Positions 15,702 through 22,296 of a DNA stretch of 64,000 bases are shown here, piece by piece. This DNA comes from Roseibium aestuarii (GTDB lineage Bacteria > Pseudomonadota > Alphaproteobacteria > Rhizobiales > Stappiaceae): contig NZ_VORA01000001.1 in assembly GCF_008477545.1 (NCBI RefSeq), positions 682,001 through 746,000 on the forward strand, written 5' to 3'. The notes below the pieces were generated by a model. That model was not told the origin of the DNA, ran no database searches, and worked only from the letters and a program-made list of their open reading frames with translations. Each line of letters starts with the position of its first letter. The first letter of the stretch is position 1. A program made the translations under genes and the position numbers.

Positions 15702-16032
15702 TCCTGCCCCGATAATTAATCGGCTAAGTTTTTTCGCAGCGCTTTCAGTGACTTGCCTGAGTCGTGCCGCATTTTTGCTCGGGGCGGCGAAAAATTCCTC
15801 TTGTCGTGAAAAAATGATCATTGCCATACTCCGGCTTACGTAGTGCGTGAGGAGAAGGCGCTCGCCCTGCTCGTGGTCGCCCGGCAATCCTTGTTTGCCG
15901 GAAGAGGGGCACGGGGAGGCGGGATGACCTTTTGCGACGAAAAACCGTTGCAAACCACGTGCTATGGTCGAGGGGAAGGATCGGAGGCGTGATCTCAGAC
16001 GCGCCCGGCCGTCAACAAGAGGTAAAGCGACA
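15702..16032. other. 330-bp intergenic region upstream of the 5'-nucleotidase gene
   Basis: No gene seen. It is less GC-rich than its surroundings in the first half and probably holds the nucleotidase promoter. A hairpin CCGGCAA (15881-15887) / TTGCCGG (15895-15901) lies 130 bp before the start. Confidence 0.45.
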
Positions 16033-17643
16033 ATGGCGAAGAAAACCAGATGGGGAGTGGCGGTTCTGGCCGCCGGTACGGTTCTGTCGGGCTCGGCCCT
16101 GGCCGATTACAAGCTCACGATCCTGCACACCAACGACATTCACAGCCGTATCGAGCAGATCAACAAGTACGACAGCGGCTGCAGTGCCGATGATTCTGCT
16201 GAAGGCAAGTGCTTCGGCGGCATCGCGCGCGTGAAGGCCAAGATTGACGAGCGCCGCGCCGCACTCAAGGCCGAAGGCCGCAACGTGATCGTTCTGGATG
16301 CCGGTGACCAGTTCCAGGGCTCGCTCTTCTATTCGACCTACAAGGGCAAGGCCGCAGCCGAGTTCTCCAAGGCGATCGGCTATGACGCAATGGCCGTCGG
16401 CAACCACGAATTCGACGATGGTCCGGAAAAGCTTGCGGAATTCATCGATGCCGTGCCATTCCCGGTCCTGTCCGGCAACATCGACGTGAGCGGTGACGCC
16501 CTGCTGAAGGACAACGTTCCCGGCAGCGTCGTGCTCGAAGTCGGTGGCGAGAAGATCGCAATCGTCTCCGTTCTGGCCGAAGACACCGCCGAGACCTCCT
16601 CTCCGGGGAAAGGCGTCGTCTTCAACAACGCCGAAGACTACCTGAAGGCCGCAGTTTCCGAACTCGAGTCTTCCGGCGTCAACAAGATCATCGCCCTGAC
16701 CCATGTGGGCTACCCCCGTGACCAGCGGATCGCCGCTGCAGTCTCCGGTGTCGATGCCATCGTGGGCGGCCATTCCCATACCCTCCTGTCCAACAGCGAC
16801 GACAAGGCGGCCGGTCCCTATCCGACCATCGTGGCGAACCCGGACGGCAAGGAGGTTCCGATCGTTCAGGCCTATGCCTATTCCAAGTATGTTGGCGAAG
16901 TGGAACTGACCTTCGGCGACAACGGCGATCTCATCTCCGCCAAGGGCGACCCGATCCTGCTCGATGCCTCGGTGACGCCGGATGAAGCGATTGCCGCGCG
17001 CGTGACCGAACTTGCCAAGCCGCTCGAGGAAGTGCGTCAGCAGGTGATCGGCTCGACCTCCGAGACCATCGACGGCTCCCGCGACACGTGCCGCGCCAAG
17101 GAATGCGCCATGGGCAACCTGGTGGCCGATGCCATGCTGGACCGCGTCAAGGACCAGGGCGTGACCATTGCCATCCAGAACGGTGGCGGTCTGCGTGCCT
17201 CCATCGATGCCGGTGAAGTCACCATGGGCGAAGTCCTGACGGTGCTGCCGTTCCAGAACACCCTGGCGACCTTCCTGCTCTCCGGTGAAGGTGTCGTCGC
17301 AGCCCTCGAAAACGGTGTGTCCCAGATCGAGGAAGGCGCCGGCCGCTTCCCGCAGGTGGCAGGTCTGACCTTCACGGTCGATGCCTCCAAGCCCGCGGGC
17401 GAGCGCATCTCCGACGTGATGGTCAAGGAAGGCGACGCCTTCGTGCCGATCGACCCGGCCAAGATGTACGGTGTCGTGTCCAACAACTACATGCGCGGCG
17501 GTGGTGACGGCTATTCGATTTTCTCCGAAAAGGGTGAGAAGGCCTATGACTTCGGTCCGAACCTCGAAAAGGTTGTCGCCGACTATATTTCCAAGTCGAA
17601 TGACTACAAGCCCTATGTAGATGGCCGTATCGTCATGAAGTAA
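16033..17643 (+). CDS. Exported bifunctional 5'-nucleotidase / metallophosphatase
   Basis: A 536-aa protein with a Sec signal peptide (AVLAAGTVLSGSALA) and an N-terminal calcineurin-like metallophosphatase domain. The metal motifs are HTNDIHS, DAGDQFQGS, GNHEFDD, THVGYPRDQ and GGHSHT. The C-terminal 5'-nucleotidase domain contains MGNLVADAML, IQNGGGLRASI, VLPFQNTL and YSIFSEKG. It probably dephosphorylates nucleotides in the periplasm to salvage phosphate and nucleosides. ATG 16033 has an AGAGGTAAAG element upstream. Two cysteine pairs (residues near 40-55 and TCRAKEC) could form disulfides in the periplasm. A terminator follows. Confidence 0.93.
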   Translation: MAKKTRWGVAVLAAGTVLSGSALADYKLTILHTNDIHSRIEQINKYDSGCSADDSAEGKCFGGIARVKAKIDERRAALKAEGRNVIVLDAGDQFQGSLFYSTYKGKAAAEFSKAIGYDAMAVGNHEFDDGPEKLAEFIDAVPFPVLSGNIDVSGDALLKDNVPGSVVLEVGGEKIAIVSVLAEDTAETSSPGKGVVFNNAEDYLKAAVSELESSGVNKIIALTHVGYPRDQRIAAAVSGVDAIVGGHSHTLLSNSDDKAAGPYPTIVANPDGKEVPIVQAYAYSKYVGEVELTFGDNGDLISAKGDPILLDASVTPDEAIAARVTELAKPLEEVRQQVIGSTSETIDGSRDTCRAKECAMGNLVADAMLDRVKDQGVTIAIQNGGGLRASIDAGEVTMGEVLTVLPFQNTLATFLLSGEGVVAALENGVSQIEEGAGRFPQVAGLTFTVDASKPAGERISDVMVKEGDAFVPIDPAKMYGVVSNNYMRGGGDGYSIFSEKGEKAYDFGPNLEKVVADYISKSNDYKPYVDGRIVMK

Positions 17644-17727: not shown

Positions 17728-17821
17728 CGTCTTGTATGTGCCCCTGCGAGATGTCATCTAGGGGTCTTTCCGGATTTGTCGTTCTTCAATTTCTTTCGAG
17801 TTGCGTTGATTGGGTCGGTTC

Positions 17822-19336
17822 ATGTGTACAAGCGGTGAAGATCAGCTGCGCGCCGCCAGCCGGTTGCCCTGGCAGACCGGACGAGCTCGCCTGTCCGTGA
17901 CGAAGAGCCATCACCGCGACCGGGCGGCTTGGCGCCGCGCGTTCTCGCGCCTGCCCACCATCCTTGCAGCTATGCTTTCCGGTGTCCTGCCCGCCACCGG
18001 GAGCGCAGCCCTGAGCCTCGGCGCCGCCCTGGCGCTGAGCGCCGTGCTCGCAGTCCCCGCCGAGGCCCGCGCCCCGGAGCTTTCGACCGACCTGCGCGTG
18101 CGCCAGCAGGAGCTTCTGGCCTTGACGCTGGCCCGTCCGGACAATCTGGACCTCGCCTTCGAATATGCCACCGTCTCAGCCAGCATCGGCGACTACGAGG
18201 CGGCCATCAGCACCTTCGAGCGCATGCTGATCTTCGCGCCGGGCCTTCCCCGCGTGCAGCTTGAGCTGGGGGTCCTCTATTTCCGCCTGGGCGCCAACGG
18301 CCAGGCGCGCCAGTATTTCGAGGCGGCCATCTCCGGACCGAACGTTCCCGACGAGGTGCGCGAGCGGGTGGGGGCCTATCTCGCCGCCATCGGCGATGCG
18401 GAGAACCCGACCGAGTTTCAGGCCTCGCTTCTCGTCGGCCTGCGTGTCCAGTCCAATGCGACCGCCGGGCCGGACAGTCGCTTCATCGATCTGAACGGCA
18501 CAACCTTCCTGCTCGACCCGACCTCGACGGGCCGACGGGACGTGAACGCCTACACCGCCGCGACGCTGCACTGGGGCTATGATCTGGGCACCCAGGGCGA
18601 TGCGCTGGAAGCCGATCTGCTGGCCTATGCGTCACGCTACGGCGACGTCAGCCGGCTCGACAGCTCGCTGGTCGAGGTCACCTTCGGCCCGGCGTTCAAC
18701 CTGGCCCGCTTCGGACTCGATGACGCCCGGCTCGGCGTCTATGCCATCGCCAGCGGCGTGCGCCTCGACCACGCCAATTACAGCGGCACTCTGGGCAGCG
18801 GTCTTCGGGCTGCCTGGCGTCCGGAGCCCCTGAGCGAGCTTCAGGGCAAGGTGGAATTCCGCCGCCGCTGGTACAATGACACTGCGGCCAACCCGGAAGT
18901 CTCCGAGCGCTCGGGCGCGCTCTACGAGGGATCGCTGATCTACGCGCGTCACCTCTCCGCCGCCTGGACCGCGCGGGCGACACTCTTTGGTGATTTCGAG
19001 GAAGCGAAGGTGGACTGGCGTCAGAGCTGGGAGGTCGGTGCCGGCGCCGGCGTCACCTGGCGCTTTGCCTCGCCGGCGCCCCGGCTCAGCCTCCATTGGT
19101 CTGCGAGCCTCGATGCGGGCTATATTCGCCGGATCTATCAGGGCCCGGATCCGCTGATCAATGCCGGCCTCGCCCAGAAGGACCATGAGGGGTTCCTCAA
19201 GGCGGGCCTCACCGTGCCCCTGCGGGAGGATATCGCGCTCACCCTGGGCGCCGAATTGCGCCGTCAGGTCTCCACCTATGATCTGGGCACCTTCAACAAT
19301 GGGGCCGCGTCTCTGGCCCTCGTCAAGACGTTCTGA
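17822..19336 (+). CDS. TPR plus DUF560 outer-membrane protein (Slam / type XI secretion translocon)
   Basis: About 504 aa. A long N-terminal leader ends in a hydrophobic signal segment (LSLGAALALSAVLAVPAEARA). Two or more TPR-like helix pairs follow (about 85-165: ALTLARPDNLDLAFEYATVSA, DYEAAISTFERMLIFAPG, LGANGQARQYFEAAI). From about residue 200 the protein is alternating beta-strand sequence typical of a 14-strand DUF560 barrel, ending VKTF with the terminal Phe of outer-membrane barrels. Slam proteins move lipoproteins or soluble cargo across the outer membrane. The likely cargo gene starts 12 bp after the stop. The start codon is uncertain (ATG 17822 or 17972). Confidence 0.75.
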   Translation: MCTSGEDQLRAASRLPWQTGRARLSVTKSHHRDRAAWRRAFSRLPTILAAMLSGVLPATGSAALSLGAALALSAVLAVPAEARAPELSTDLRVRQQELLALTLARPDNLDLAFEYATVSASIGDYEAAISTFERMLIFAPGLPRVQLELGVLYFRLGANGQARQYFEAAISGPNVPDEVRERVGAYLAAIGDAENPTEFQASLLVGLRVQSNATAGPDSRFIDLNGTTFLLDPTSTGRRDVNAYTAATLHWGYDLGTQGDALEADLLAYASRYGDVSRLDSSLVEVTFGPAFNLARFGLDDARLGVYAIASGVRLDHANYSGTLGSGLRAAWRPEPLSELQGKVEFRRRWYNDTAANPEVSERSGALYEGSLIYARHLSAAWTARATLFGDFEEAKVDWRQSWEVGAGAGVTWRFASPAPRLSLHWSASLDAGYIRRIYQGPDPLINAGLAQKDHEGFLKAGLTVPLREDIALTLGAELRRQVSTYDLGTFNNGAASLALVKTF

Positions 19337-19347
19337 GGGGGGGGATC

Positions 19348-22296
19348 ATGACCGCATCGCGAAACACCTTCGGCGCGTCTCTCCTGACCGCGACCGCCTT
19401 CACGGTCCTTCTGCCCCTGTGCCACACCCCTGCGGTGGCGGAACCCCAGGTCGGTGTGGCGGCTGCCATCAACACCACCACCTTCGGCACCCCACCCGGC
19501 GGCGCCCGCAACGTGATGGTGCTGGGCGAGAACGTCATCTACCGCCACCGGATCGAGACCAGCGGCAGCGGTCTGGTTCAGGTTCTCCTGAAGGACGGGT
19601 CCACCTTCACGGTGGGGTCGAACGCCGATCTGGTGATCGACGAATTCGTCTACGACCCGAATGCGGGCACCGGCACGCTGGTTGCCTCGCTCGGCAAGGG
19701 CGTGGCCCGGTTCGTCGGCGGCAAGTTGTCGAAGAACCGGGGTGGCGTCAGCGTCAAGACCCCGGTCGGCACCATCGGCATCCGGGGCGGCATCGCCAAT
19801 CTTGCCCTGGCGGGGCCGGGCGGCGGACCTTCCACCTTCTCCTTCATCTTCGGCGATGAACTCACCTTCACCGATCCTTCGGGTCGGACGACGCGCGCCT
19901 ATGCACCGGGCTACACCATCGAGGTCTCTTCCGGCGGTTCGGCCAGCCGGGTGCGGCGGACGGAGCCGGGCGATCTCGGCCAGGTGCAGGCGTTCCTGAC
20001 CGGTGCCCCGGGGCAACAGGGCGGTATCGGGCGTCCGCCGACCGATCCGGTGATCGAACGCTCCGGCGTTCCGGACGTCAACTCCCGTCTGCCGCGCTTC
20101 GTCACCACGCCGCTGCCGAAACCCTTCGTGGTTCAGTCGACGGCGCCGCGGGACATTCACCGTCACCTGTTGCCGCCCGAGGTCCCGACCCGCGAGGGGA
20201 TCAGCGGCCAGATCGGGCGTGACAGCGACGCCAGTGACGTCCTCCGCTTCAACCTGCGAACCCCCGGCAGCACCTTCACCGCCGGCTATGACGCCTCGGT
20301 TGTGGTGACGGCTCCCGGAGCGCAGGGGCTGATCGGAGGGCCGGGAGGGCAGTCCGGAGGCGTCAATCTCGAAAAGGGCACCGTCACCGGCGGCACGGCC
20401 GTGGGGGTGGTGCAGGGAGCTGTCGGCGACAACTGGCTGGTGCAGTTCGTCTTCGAGGGATCGGGCAGCTATTTCTACACCCAGGGTCTCAGCGCCGACA
20501 ATGTGGCCAGCCAGACCGTGGACCAGGAGGCCGTGCCCACACCGCCCGCACCCGACAGCGGGGCGGATCCCTTTGCCACCTTCGCCCGGGGCATCCAGTA
20601 TTTCGATTATGACGAGAGCTTCCTCGCCTTCGCCCATTACTTTTCGACCGGCGGCAGCCCGACCTCCTATGATCCGGAGAATGTGGTCATCGGCGTGACC
20701 GGGGTCGCGACCGACTTCAGCGCCTTTGGCGCGGCCTCCGATCCGTTGCAGCTGCGGACCTATGATCTGGCGACCGATCCGACCCTGCAATTCTCGCTGG
20801 GAACCGAAAACGGCGACGGGTCCTATGATCCGCTCAACTCCGCCGCACTCTTCATGAACCCCATCGTCGCGGCCCAGTTCGGTGCGGGCTTCGTGGAGAA
20901 TGTGGTCGGCACCAATCTCTATCTCGCAGAAACCAGCAGCACGACCCTGGCAGGGGCCCATGCCCTGGCAAGCTCCTTCCTCATCTCCGGAACGGGCGCG
21001 TCGCAGAAATCCTTCGCCTCGCTTCTGGTGGGGACGATCGAGAGCAGCAATGACAAACTGACCCTCGAGACCGGGCGGCGCGGCAGTCATCGCCTGAACG
21101 CGACGGACAGTTCGGCGCGCTATTCGGGGGCCATTACCCTGCTCGACAACGGCGACGGCGCGAGCATCTTCGGGTCGGATGCCAATTACATGGTGCTGGG
21201 CACGGACCTGACCGACGGGGACAGCTTCCAGGACCTCTATGCGGATCCCGGTCAGGCGGTCGATGAGGCATCGCTCCTGAGCGGAACGATGCATGTGGCG
21301 GAGTTGCTCGGCAAGACCAACCTGGCCTCCCTGGATCGGGGCGCAGCCACGACCTTTGAGGGCTATGCGGCCGGGGTGCTGGAGAGCACCTTCAATCTCT
21401 CCGACGGATACGGGCCGACCGCCTTCGCCAGCACGTCTGCCGATGATTTCAGCCTGACCTTCCTGCCTGACGAGAGCACCATGTCGGCGACGCTCGATGT
21501 CTCGGACTCAGGGACGAACGTGGCGGAAACGGACGTCTTCATCGACCGGCTGCACCTGCAGTTCGGCGTGGGAACGGATGATGCGGGTGAGAATCGCGGA
21601 ACCTTCATCGACACCGACACCTATGGCGCGCGGGAAGCCTCCCTTGCGCAGGACAGCTACATCCTGACCGAGAGCGAGGATGTGCTGACCAAAAGTTCCT
21701 CCACCGGTCTGAAGTCCTATCTTGTGGCGAGCACCGTTGTCGGGGCAGGGGATGCGGCCCTCTTCTCCGGCAGCACCGAATGCACCTGCGACTTCCTCGA
21801 ATGGGGCTACTGGGGCACCAATCTGACGGTCGACGGCAACCAGAGCACGGACCTGGGCAACGGGACCGAACGGGTCAACGTGCACATGGGCACGTGGGTG
21901 GCTGGCGATGTGATCGACGCGAGCGAGTTTCCGACCACCGGCGGGGCAACCTATGCCGGCCACGCGGTGGGCAACGTGATCAGCGGGTCGGGCAGCACGG
22001 CATCGCAATATCTCGCGGCCGGCGATTTCTCCATGACCGTGGACTTCGCCAACCGAACCGGCTCGGCCGCCATCACCAGCTTCGATGGCCGCGACTTCAC
22101 CGCCTCCATGTCGGACTGGGGCTCGACCCAGAACCGGATTGCCGGGGCCCTGCAGAATGTCTCGCTCGGCACCGTGGGTGATCTCACCACCTCCCTTGTT
22201 CGCGGGCCTCTGTCGCCCACACAGGGCGTCGTCGGAAACTTCCACATCGAGGACAGCGGCTGGAGTGCCGTGGGCATCGTGGCCGGGCAACAGTAA
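19348..22296 (+). CDS. Secreted FecR-domain protein with a C-terminal TbpB-like barrel (candidate DUF560 cargo)
   Basis: 982 aa. The signal peptide ends at AVA before EPQVG, and no lipobox is present. Residues about 30-200 are a FecR domain (VLGENVIYRHRIETSGSG, LKDGSTFTVGSNADLVIDEFVYDP, VKTPVGTIGIRGG) of the kind found in secreted, not TonB-signalling, proteins. A long middle region (200-800) is beta-rich with no known domain. A CTC motif at 812-814 followed by WGYW leads to a small C-terminal barrel: TYAGHAVGNVISG, FSMTVDFANRTGSAAITSFDG and a final AVGIVAGQQ, like the TbpB-type barrel recognised by Slam/T11SS exporters. A GGGGGG ribosome site and the 12-bp gap show it is co-transcribed with the exporter. 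Confidence 0.72.
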   Translation: MTASRNTFGASLLTATAFTVLLPLCHTPAVAEPQVGVAAAINTTTFGTPPGGARNVMVLGENVIYRHRIETSGSGLVQVLLKDGSTFTVGSNADLVIDEFVYDPNAGTGTLVASLGKGVARFVGGKLSKNRGGVSVKTPVGTIGIRGGIANLALAGPGGGPSTFSFIFGDELTFTDPSGRTTRAYAPGYTIEVSSGGSASRVRRTEPGDLGQVQAFLTGAPGQQGGIGRPPTDPVIERSGVPDVNSRLPRFVTTPLPKPFVVQSTAPRDIHRHLLPPEVPTREGISGQIGRDSDASDVLRFNLRTPGSTFTAGYDASVVVTAPGAQGLIGGPGGQSGGVNLEKGTVTGGTAVGVVQGAVGDNWLVQFVFEGSGSYFYTQGLSADNVASQTVDQEAVPTPPAPDSGADPFATFARGIQYFDYDESFLAFAHYFSTGGSPTSYDPENVVIGVTGVATDFSAFGAASDPLQLRTYDLATDPTLQFSLGTENGDGSYDPLNSAALFMNPIVAAQFGAGFVENVVGTNLYLAETSSTTLAGAHALASSFLISGTGASQKSFASLLVGTIESSNDKLTLETGRRGSHRLNATDSSARYSGAITLLDNGDGASIFGSDANYMVLGTDLTDGDSFQDLYADPGQAVDEASLLSGTMHVAELLGKTNLASLDRGAATTFEGYAAGVLESTFNLSDGYGPTAFASTSADDFSLTFLPDESTMSATLDVSDSGTNVAETDVFIDRLHLQFGVGTDDAGENRGTFIDTDTYGAREASLAQDSYILTESEDVLTKSSSTGLKSYLVASTVVGAGDAALFSGSTECTCDFLEWGYWGTNLTVDGNQSTDLGNGTERVNVHMGTWVAGDVIDASEFPTTGGATYAGHAVGNVISGSGSTASQYLAAGDFSMTVDFANRTGSAAITSFDGRDFTASMSDWGSTQNRIAGALQNVSLGTVGDLTTSLVRGPLSPTQGVVGNFHIEDSGWSAVGIVAGQQ

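Follow-up and report, generated by a model that had tools for sequence, protein, structure and literature searches.

Two adjacent genes on the forward strand of Roseibium aestuarii contig NZ_VORA01000001.1 (assembly GCF_008477545.1; positions 682,001 to 746,000, a stretch of 64,000 nucleotides referred to here as the window) encode a putative outer-membrane exporter and a secreted protein that is its predicted cargo (Table 1). The exporter combines a tetratricopeptide repeat (TPR) domain with a barrel resembling that of the type XI secretion system (T11SS; DUF560/PF04575, Slam) outer-membrane proteins (OMPs), and the cargo starts with a FecR domain and ends in a small barrel. The longest open reading frame (ORF) of the exporter starts with TTG at position 17810 and contains in-frame ATG codons at 17822 and 17972. 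The start is uncertain; the ATG at 17972, which lies right before the hydrophobic signal stretch, is the probable one and 17822 is the alternative. A reading of this DNA made from the sequence alone (the sequence-only reading) had described the TPR-barrel ORF and the adjacent 982-residue ORF as found here, but had put the spacing between them at 12 bp, whereas the gap between exporter stop and cargo start is 11 bp. Pfam recognizes just two FecR matches in the whole genome, the cargo being one of them, so the adjacency of exporter and FecR protein goes beyond chance.

Homology of the exporter and architecture of the cargo

The sequence-only reading had classified the exporter as a DUF560/Slam protein. 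A Pfam profile search did not bear this out, as PF04575 gave zero matches at E ≤ 1 for the exporter protein or for the whole genome; the scan returned TPR_9 (E = 1.8e-7, under its curated cut-off) and, weakly, TPR_Slam (E = 0.056). The assignment as Slam-like did hold up in profile comparison. Among 190 genomes sampled from the class, 20 had PF04575 matches. When 66 window-type exporters were compared with 13 PF04575 ORFs in hhalign, the probability was 100 (E = 1.9e-54). The barrel alone reached a probability of 99.9 (E = 5.5e-33, 282 columns) and the reversed barrel alignment, which served as a control, 4.8. The antisense ORF L140 was kept out of this comparison; the choice of exporters was the same either way. 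Removal of the three members with FecR or CHASE2 genes in their loci left ten PF04575 ORFs, which matched the exporters with probability 100 (E = 1e-40, 379 columns). A hidden Markov model (HMM) built from these ten ORFs matched all 86 FecR-adjacent exporters described below (E = 3.2e-36 for the window exporter). The window exporter also matches the PF04575 protein of genome G413 (E = 1.2e-17). Because the profile comparison matches PF04575 members, also without those linked to FecR or CHASE2, we assign the exporter on sequence grounds to a divergent branch of the DUF560/T11SS (Slam) superfamily over both its TPR domain and its barrel. It is referred to as T11SS-like, as it is not a PF04575 member.

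In the AlphaFold model of the exporter, the TPR helices extend to residue 197 and are followed by 14 long strands up to the C-terminus. Six sequences were used as input, and the best of five models reached a predicted local distance difference test score (pLDDT) of 70.5 and a predicted template modelling score of 0.64 (pLDDT 66.0 for the second model and 37-44 for the other three). A Foldseek search with this model gave BcsC as the top match by E-value (template modelling score 0.42, root mean square deviation (rmsd) 20.3), together with the 14-strand barrels OmpG and CymA. These matches are expected because the exporter is a TPR protein with a 14-strand barrel. No solved Slam structure was among the 50 matches listed, which does not exclude that one exists. 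A sequence search of the PDB yielded 37 matches, all of them TPR proteins aligned over the repeats, and Pfam matched no TonB-dependent receptor or plug domain in the exporter. The rank of BcsC would be in line with an OMP that belongs with the BcsC/PgaA-type polysaccharide exporters and has the FecR protein as an accessory. We consider such polymer export highly improbable, since the BcsC match is poor by the values given above, the barrel matches DUF560 by profile, a cargo barrel adjoins the exporter, and no glycosyltransferase or synthase was recognized among the neighbouring ORFs by eye, without a domain scan.

The cargo carries a FecR domain at residues 68-149 which scores above the Pfam cut-off (E = 5.5e-6, 27.2 bits against 24), behind a signal stretch that is lipobox-free when read by eye; both features had been recognized in the sequence-only reading. 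Among the 86 FecR partners surveyed below, a regular expression found a lipobox-like motif before FecR in three. In alignments with the same four relatives the FecR head is 69-81% identical and the barrel 52-57%. When the FecR head was searched against PDB sequences, the best match had E = 0.048 and none was convincing as a relative. Shortly before the barrel lies a CxC-FLEWGYWG motif, possibly a disulphide or metal site. Of the 59 barrel-tailed FecR partners, 39 carry the motif in strict form and most others a variant of it.

Pfam matches to residues 845-919 of the cargo are sub-threshold (FHBP_C, 3.2e-4; TbpB_B_D, 0.026; slam_lipo, 3.7e-6). The AlphaFold model of the cargo, with five input sequences, has an overall pLDDT of 35 (below 50 for 848 of 982 residues) and is usable near the C-terminus, where eight strands are modelled at residues 866-981. 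All ten Foldseek matches of this barrel at E ≤ 1e-3 are chains of fHbp, NHBA (2lfu, which we take to be NHBA) or TbpB. VIA-align gave a Z-score of 15.1 with fHbp (rmsd 2.8, 124 residues), 13.5 with NHBA, 12.6 with TbpB, and 12.0 and 11.9 with the haemophilins HphA and Hpl; eight-strand barrels in general also score, as the outer-membrane protein Ail reached 12.4. Judged by its modelled fold, the cargo tail is a T11SS-cargo-type barrel. The models of both proteins, one with a TPR domain and 14 strands and one with an eight-strand tail, agree with the sequence-only reading, in which a C-terminal barrel of the TbpB/T11SS type had been proposed. The gene pair is distantly related to the machines that place receptor proteins on the surface of meningitis bacteria.

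Table 1. Position of the exporter and cargo genes, their predicted domains, and further genes mentioned in the text.
Feature	Position	Strand	Evidence
Exporter, T11SS/DUF560-like outer-membrane protein, 508 aa (longest ORF)	17810..19336	+	ORF call, Pfam, model, hhalign
Exporter TPR domain (residues 95-197), presumed periplasmic	18092..18400	+	Pfam TPR models; helices in model
Exporter 14-strand outer-membrane barrel (residues 204-508)	18419..19333	+	model; barrel-only hhalign to PF04575 members
Cargo, FecR-headed barrel-tailed secreted protein, 982 aa, ATG start	19348..22296	+	ORF call, Pfam, model
Cargo putative Sec signal peptide (signal peptidase I (SPI) type), site about AVA/EP, lipobox-free	19348..19440	+	read by eye
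Cargo FecR head (residues 35-152)	19450..19803	+	Pfam FecR; alignment
Cargo variable beta-rich middle (residues 230-800), low model confidence	20035..21747	+	'mid' HMM; model
C-x-C-x-F-L-E-W-G-Y-W-G motif	21781..21816	+	alignments
Cargo C-terminal eight-strand T11SS-cargo-type barrel (residues 866-981)	21943..22290	+	model; Foldseek; structure alignment
5'-nucleotidase/UshA-like gene, upstream conserved neighbour, outside the claimed module	15964..17643	+	Pfam
CHASE2 adenylate/guanylate cyclase beside sigma-70-type (rpoH-like) gene	L222:403-2688 (G000:C17)	-	Pfam

FecR and barrel partners across exporter loci

Exporter homologs were found in 46 of 87 genomes of the family, in 44 of 297 genomes sampled from the order and in 22 of 299 sampled from the phylum (overlapping sets). 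We read 121 loci, consisting of 46 from the family, 37 from the order, 20 with a PF04575 hit and 18 from the class or phylum; similarity to the window exporter was the criterion for choosing all of these except the PF04575-hit loci. The survey confirmed that the pair co-occurs, with a same-strand FecR ORF no more than 200 bp away in 86 of the 121 loci (37/46 family, 32/37 order, 5/20 PF04575-hit and 12/18 class/phylum). FecR and barrel are found in a single ORF in 33 family, 20 order, 3 PF04575-hit and 3 class/phylum loci. If two broken genes and one gene second in line are included, 36 of the 46 family loci have a barrel-tailed FecR protein beside the exporter. A strong FecR head (E < 1e-35) is encoded in 45 of 46 exporter genomes of the family and in none of the 41 exporter-less ones; the sole exporter genome lacking it is 85% complete with a contig that ends at the locus, and at L094 the FecR gene, if present, lies past the contig end. 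A quick tree built from 87 exporters shows 9 changes in FecR adjacency; 200 shuffles gave 22.8 changes on average and never fewer than 18. The tree omits 34 of the 121 loci: 29 from the family that were near-duplicates or broken copies, plus L125, L137, L193, L217 and L218.

The barrel was followed in the same loci. In eight family genomes the gene for a FecR-only protein comes first, then the UshA-like gene and then the exporter, which no cargo follows; in a ninth barrel-less family genome a FecR-only partner is located downstream of the exporter. Homologs of the UshA-like gene occur in 42 of 46 family loci; the upstream gene of about 580 amino acids in barrel-less loci was considered as a split-off barrel cargo and rejected, as it is this UshA-like 5'-nucleotidase (hhalign probability <1). 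A whole-genome search with a barrel profile found nothing in 20 exporter genomes, 10 from the family (nine FecR-only genomes and the contig-edge genome) and 10 FecR-only ones from the order, 19 of which have a FecR-only partner. Positive controls were found in 5 of 5 cases, and the profile recovers every one of the 65 barrel ORFs that family and order loci are known to contain. Four loci were not treated as FecR-only: the cargo gene is broken at L003 and L099 and fragmented at L104, and at L077 a complete cargo gene occupies the second position in line. The short FecR-only proteins have G/P/S/D/N/Q/E-rich tails and give no barrel match even at a relaxed E-value. Five long FecR partners (L132, L202, L204, L205 and L213) are barrel-free by HMM and may hold diverged barrels, and the 'barrel only' partners L121 and L123 are a soft class, since FecR is weakly matched in L121 (E 0.0013). 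At L109, L112-L114 and L118 two or three FecR-headed proteins, with or without barrels, follow one exporter in a row; these may be paralogs served by a single exporter.

Since the adjacency, co-occurrence and conservation of FecR exceed those of the barrel, it is the FecR domain, and not the barrel, that appears to be the more constant partner, and the branch of the window exporter looks built around it. This constancy holds for the window exporter branch only, because most PF04575 loci are without FecR and the others were selected by likeness. Partners in this branch are better sought by the FecR domain than by the barrel. The distinct cargo class proposed in the sequence-only reading exists as a FecR-headed class, but the window protein is not a single oddity; it is one form of a large class in which the barrel is often absent. 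The homology of exporter and cargo barrel, and the barrel-tailed neighbour in 36/46 family loci, also agree with ordinary T11SS delivery. The exporter would then take the barrel-tailed protein to the surface or the medium, and there the middle would attach to a ligand or a surface. The FecR head would serve only in folding or targeting or as a peptidoglycan-proximal module, and the CHASE2 cyclase described below would regulate these genes and receive no signal from them. Soluble T11SS cargos are known (PMC12282271; here and below, statements on papers cited by PMC number refer to the parts of their text available to us). Ordinary delivery is nonetheless rather unlikely in our view, as exporter and FecR are retained without a detectable barrel in all 20 genomes searched, and a cyclase shares the locus in a quarter of the loci read (30/121).

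CHASE2 cyclases and a proposed surface-sensing system

The CHASE2-cyclase-like genes in the fetched stretches of these 30 loci are found in 18/37 order, 4/20 PF04575-hit and 8/18 class/phylum loci, and a Pfam scan of six locus-linked cyclases detected CHASE2 and adenylate/guanylate cyclase domains in all six. No CHASE2 gene was present in the window stretch scanned; the cyclase ortholog is unlinked and located elsewhere in the genome. The window genome has two CHASE2 proteins, the cyclase at L222 (Table 1) and one in a FecR-CHASE2-GGDEF-EAL gene pair at L221. The family was searched with the sensor half of the L222 protein as a query. Orthologs of the L222 cyclase (E < 1e-110) were found in 43 of 46 exporter genomes and in 0 of 41 exporter-less genomes, and within the genus in 21 of 22 exporter genomes versus 0 of 23 others. 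At L099 (G003, 94% complete), exporter, cargo and CHASE2 cyclase are all fragmented, through joint decay or poor assembly. At L221:5349-9259 (G000:C11:1223348-1227258) a FecR protein (355 aa, N/G/S-rich tail) is encoded directly 5' of the CHASE2-GGDEF-EAL protein. This pair, in the same genome as the exporter pair, carries cyclic di-GMP domains in place of the cyclase.

The sequence-only reading had raised the idea that the cargo acts as a surface sensor. The linkage to CHASE2 cyclases gives independent support to sensing, with the cargo presumed to be surface-exposed. We lean, by a narrow preference, towards the T11SS-like exporter and its FecR-headed cargo being the outer half of a surface-sensing system that feeds a CHASE2 adenylate cyclase. 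The cargo would enter the periplasm via Sec and would be captured by the TPR domain and barrel of the exporter, after which its eight-strand barrel and variable middle would be delivered to or through the outer membrane. The FecR head would stay in the periplasm and contact the CHASE2 domain of the inner-membrane cyclase. It would signal to the CHASE2 sensor whether the outer-membrane complex has bound ligand or exported its cargo, and cyclic AMP (cAMP) would change in response. Because the cargo has a signalling-type FecR head and a CHASE2 cyclase shares its genomes, the data suggest surface sensing over simple nutrient capture. More tentatively, the T11SS-like pore might at the same time form the outer-membrane part of a receptor that spans the envelope, in which the substrate is threaded or docked with FecR in the periplasm and the barrel and middle outside. 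The pore-docked FecR-headed substrate would then switch the CHASE2 adenylate cyclase by ligand binding or by its export state. If true, this would represent a secretion-coupled second-messenger system across much of Proteobacteria and would answer what many CHASE2 domains sense.

The CHASE2 linkage, together with the short FecR-only partners and their barrel-free tails, is also consistent with an OMP that is a surface receptor or anchor and does not secrete. Its TPR domain would keep the FecR protein periplasmic, and the OMP would be plugged or bound from inside by the eight-strand barrel. Such a receptor would resemble NsrA of Sinorhizobium meliloti, for which the NsrA-CyaK/CyaD system is a precedent (PMC7529298, PMC13001267), NsrA being likened by description alone. 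We regard a receptor without secretion as distinctly unlikely.

Several observations weigh against a sensing system composed of exporter, FecR-headed cargo and CHASE2 cyclase. In the family, a CHASE2 cyclase gene is present in 0 of 46 fetched stretches, that of the window pair included. The Fisher values for co-occurrence (1e-21 in the family, 6e-12 in the genus) ignore shared ancestry. Three exporter genomes are without a strong cyclase ortholog, which is in pieces in G003, matches at E = 1e-100 in G057 and is not found in G077 (89% complete). Thirteen exporter-less family genomes match the L222 sensor query, with E = 5e-14 in one and 1e-64 to 1e-99 in the other twelve, and a weak FecR match lies within 5 kb of the distant CHASE2 proteins of these twelve in 12 of 12 cases. 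Because these twelve exporter-less genomes hold another FecR-CHASE2 pair, such a pairing can do without the window exporter. The FecR neighbour is missing at 15 of 20 PF04575 loci, the FecR part of the cargo model is of low confidence, and the exporter tree carries long-branch warnings. The barrel profile detects just 5 of 11 barrel ORFs at PF04575 loci (9 of 16 from PF04575 and class/phylum loci together), and genome G386, which is FecR-only and blank with this profile, carries a barrel ORF next to another exporter. G386 is one of six FecR-only genomes from the class or phylum that were blank with the profile, and because of it all six were left out of the barrel-less count. The T11SS-like branch, the FecR protein and the CHASE2 adenylate cyclase form a defined, directly testable three-gene hypothesis.

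Comparison with known systems

The analysis describes a FecR-based T11SS-like branch with a link to CHASE2 cyclases. For most T11SS OMPs a cargo is neither known nor predicted (PMC12282271). The cargo architectures described in that paper do not include FecR, a word that occurs 0 times in its main text, and FecR was not found in the available text of PMC8406197 either. Literature searches found no paper that joins a FecR domain with Slam, T11SS, DUF560 or TbpB topics, and no mention of a T11SS identity for the outer-membrane partner in FecR-CHASE2-TPR clusters; 'FecR' with 'surface lipoprotein assembly' gave a single text match, a Lysobacter siderophore paper.

The exporter shares with the T11SS OMPs (DUF560/PF04575; Slam1/2, NilB) a TPR domain and 14-strand barrel, homology over the 379 columns given above and an adjacent cargo gene. 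It differs from them in being missed by PF04575, in sitting in a FecR-linked branch and in having a FecR-headed cargo. The cargo shares the C-terminal eight-strand barrel fold with T11SS cargos (fHbp, NHBA, TbpB and the haemophilins HphA and Hpl; Z 12-15), but has a FecR head, a length of 982 aa, a long beta-rich middle and the CxC-FLEWGYWG motif. In FecA-FecR-FecI cell-surface signalling, a FecR domain relays inward from an outer-membrane barrel. In contrast to that system, the outer-membrane partner in the window has a 14-strand barrel and is not a TonB-dependent receptor, and the FecR domain of the cargo sits behind a predicted cleavable signal and not a membrane anchor.

FecR proteins are paired with CHASE2 sensors in other settings as well. 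A FecR search on plasmids, which returned distant FecR proteins and is given for context only, revealed a FecR-OmpA-CHASE2 gene set on a Paraburkholderia plasmid. On an Ensifer plasmid (L225:2372-9012), genes for a CHASE2 cyclase, a 104-aa TPR protein and a FecR protein are followed by NHLP-type ABC export genes, making this a TPR-FecR pair with a different exporter. A Burkholderia operon encodes a LysM-FecR protein with a CHASE2 histidine kinase (PMC5192318); it shares the pairing of a FecR protein with a CHASE2 sensor, but LysM replaces the T11SS-like OMP and the output is a histidine kinase. Gene clusters of a CHASE2 cyclase, FecR and TPR protein were noted earlier in Campylobacterota (PMC9239204), and the text available does not describe their TPR protein as a T11SS-like exporter; in the window, unlike in these clusters, the cyclase is unlinked. 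Because FecR meets CHASE2 sensors also alongside LysM, OmpA and TPR, these arrangements point to FecR as the partner of CHASE2, with LysM, OmpA or a T11SS-like OMP as alternative modules in the outer envelope.

The factors sensed by CHASE2 were called unknown in 2016 (PMC5192318), and a plant ribosomal protein acting via NsrA has since been proposed as the signal in S. meliloti (PMC7529298, PMC13001267). There, the outer-membrane barrel NsrA is required for signalling to the CHASE2 cyclases (PMC7529298, PMC13001267), and the Clr regulon includes a FecR-domain protein (PMC5498481). The NsrA-CyaD1/D2/K-Clr cAMP pathway, compared here by description only, thereby shares with the system proposed for the window an outer-membrane barrel that signals to CHASE2 cyclases.
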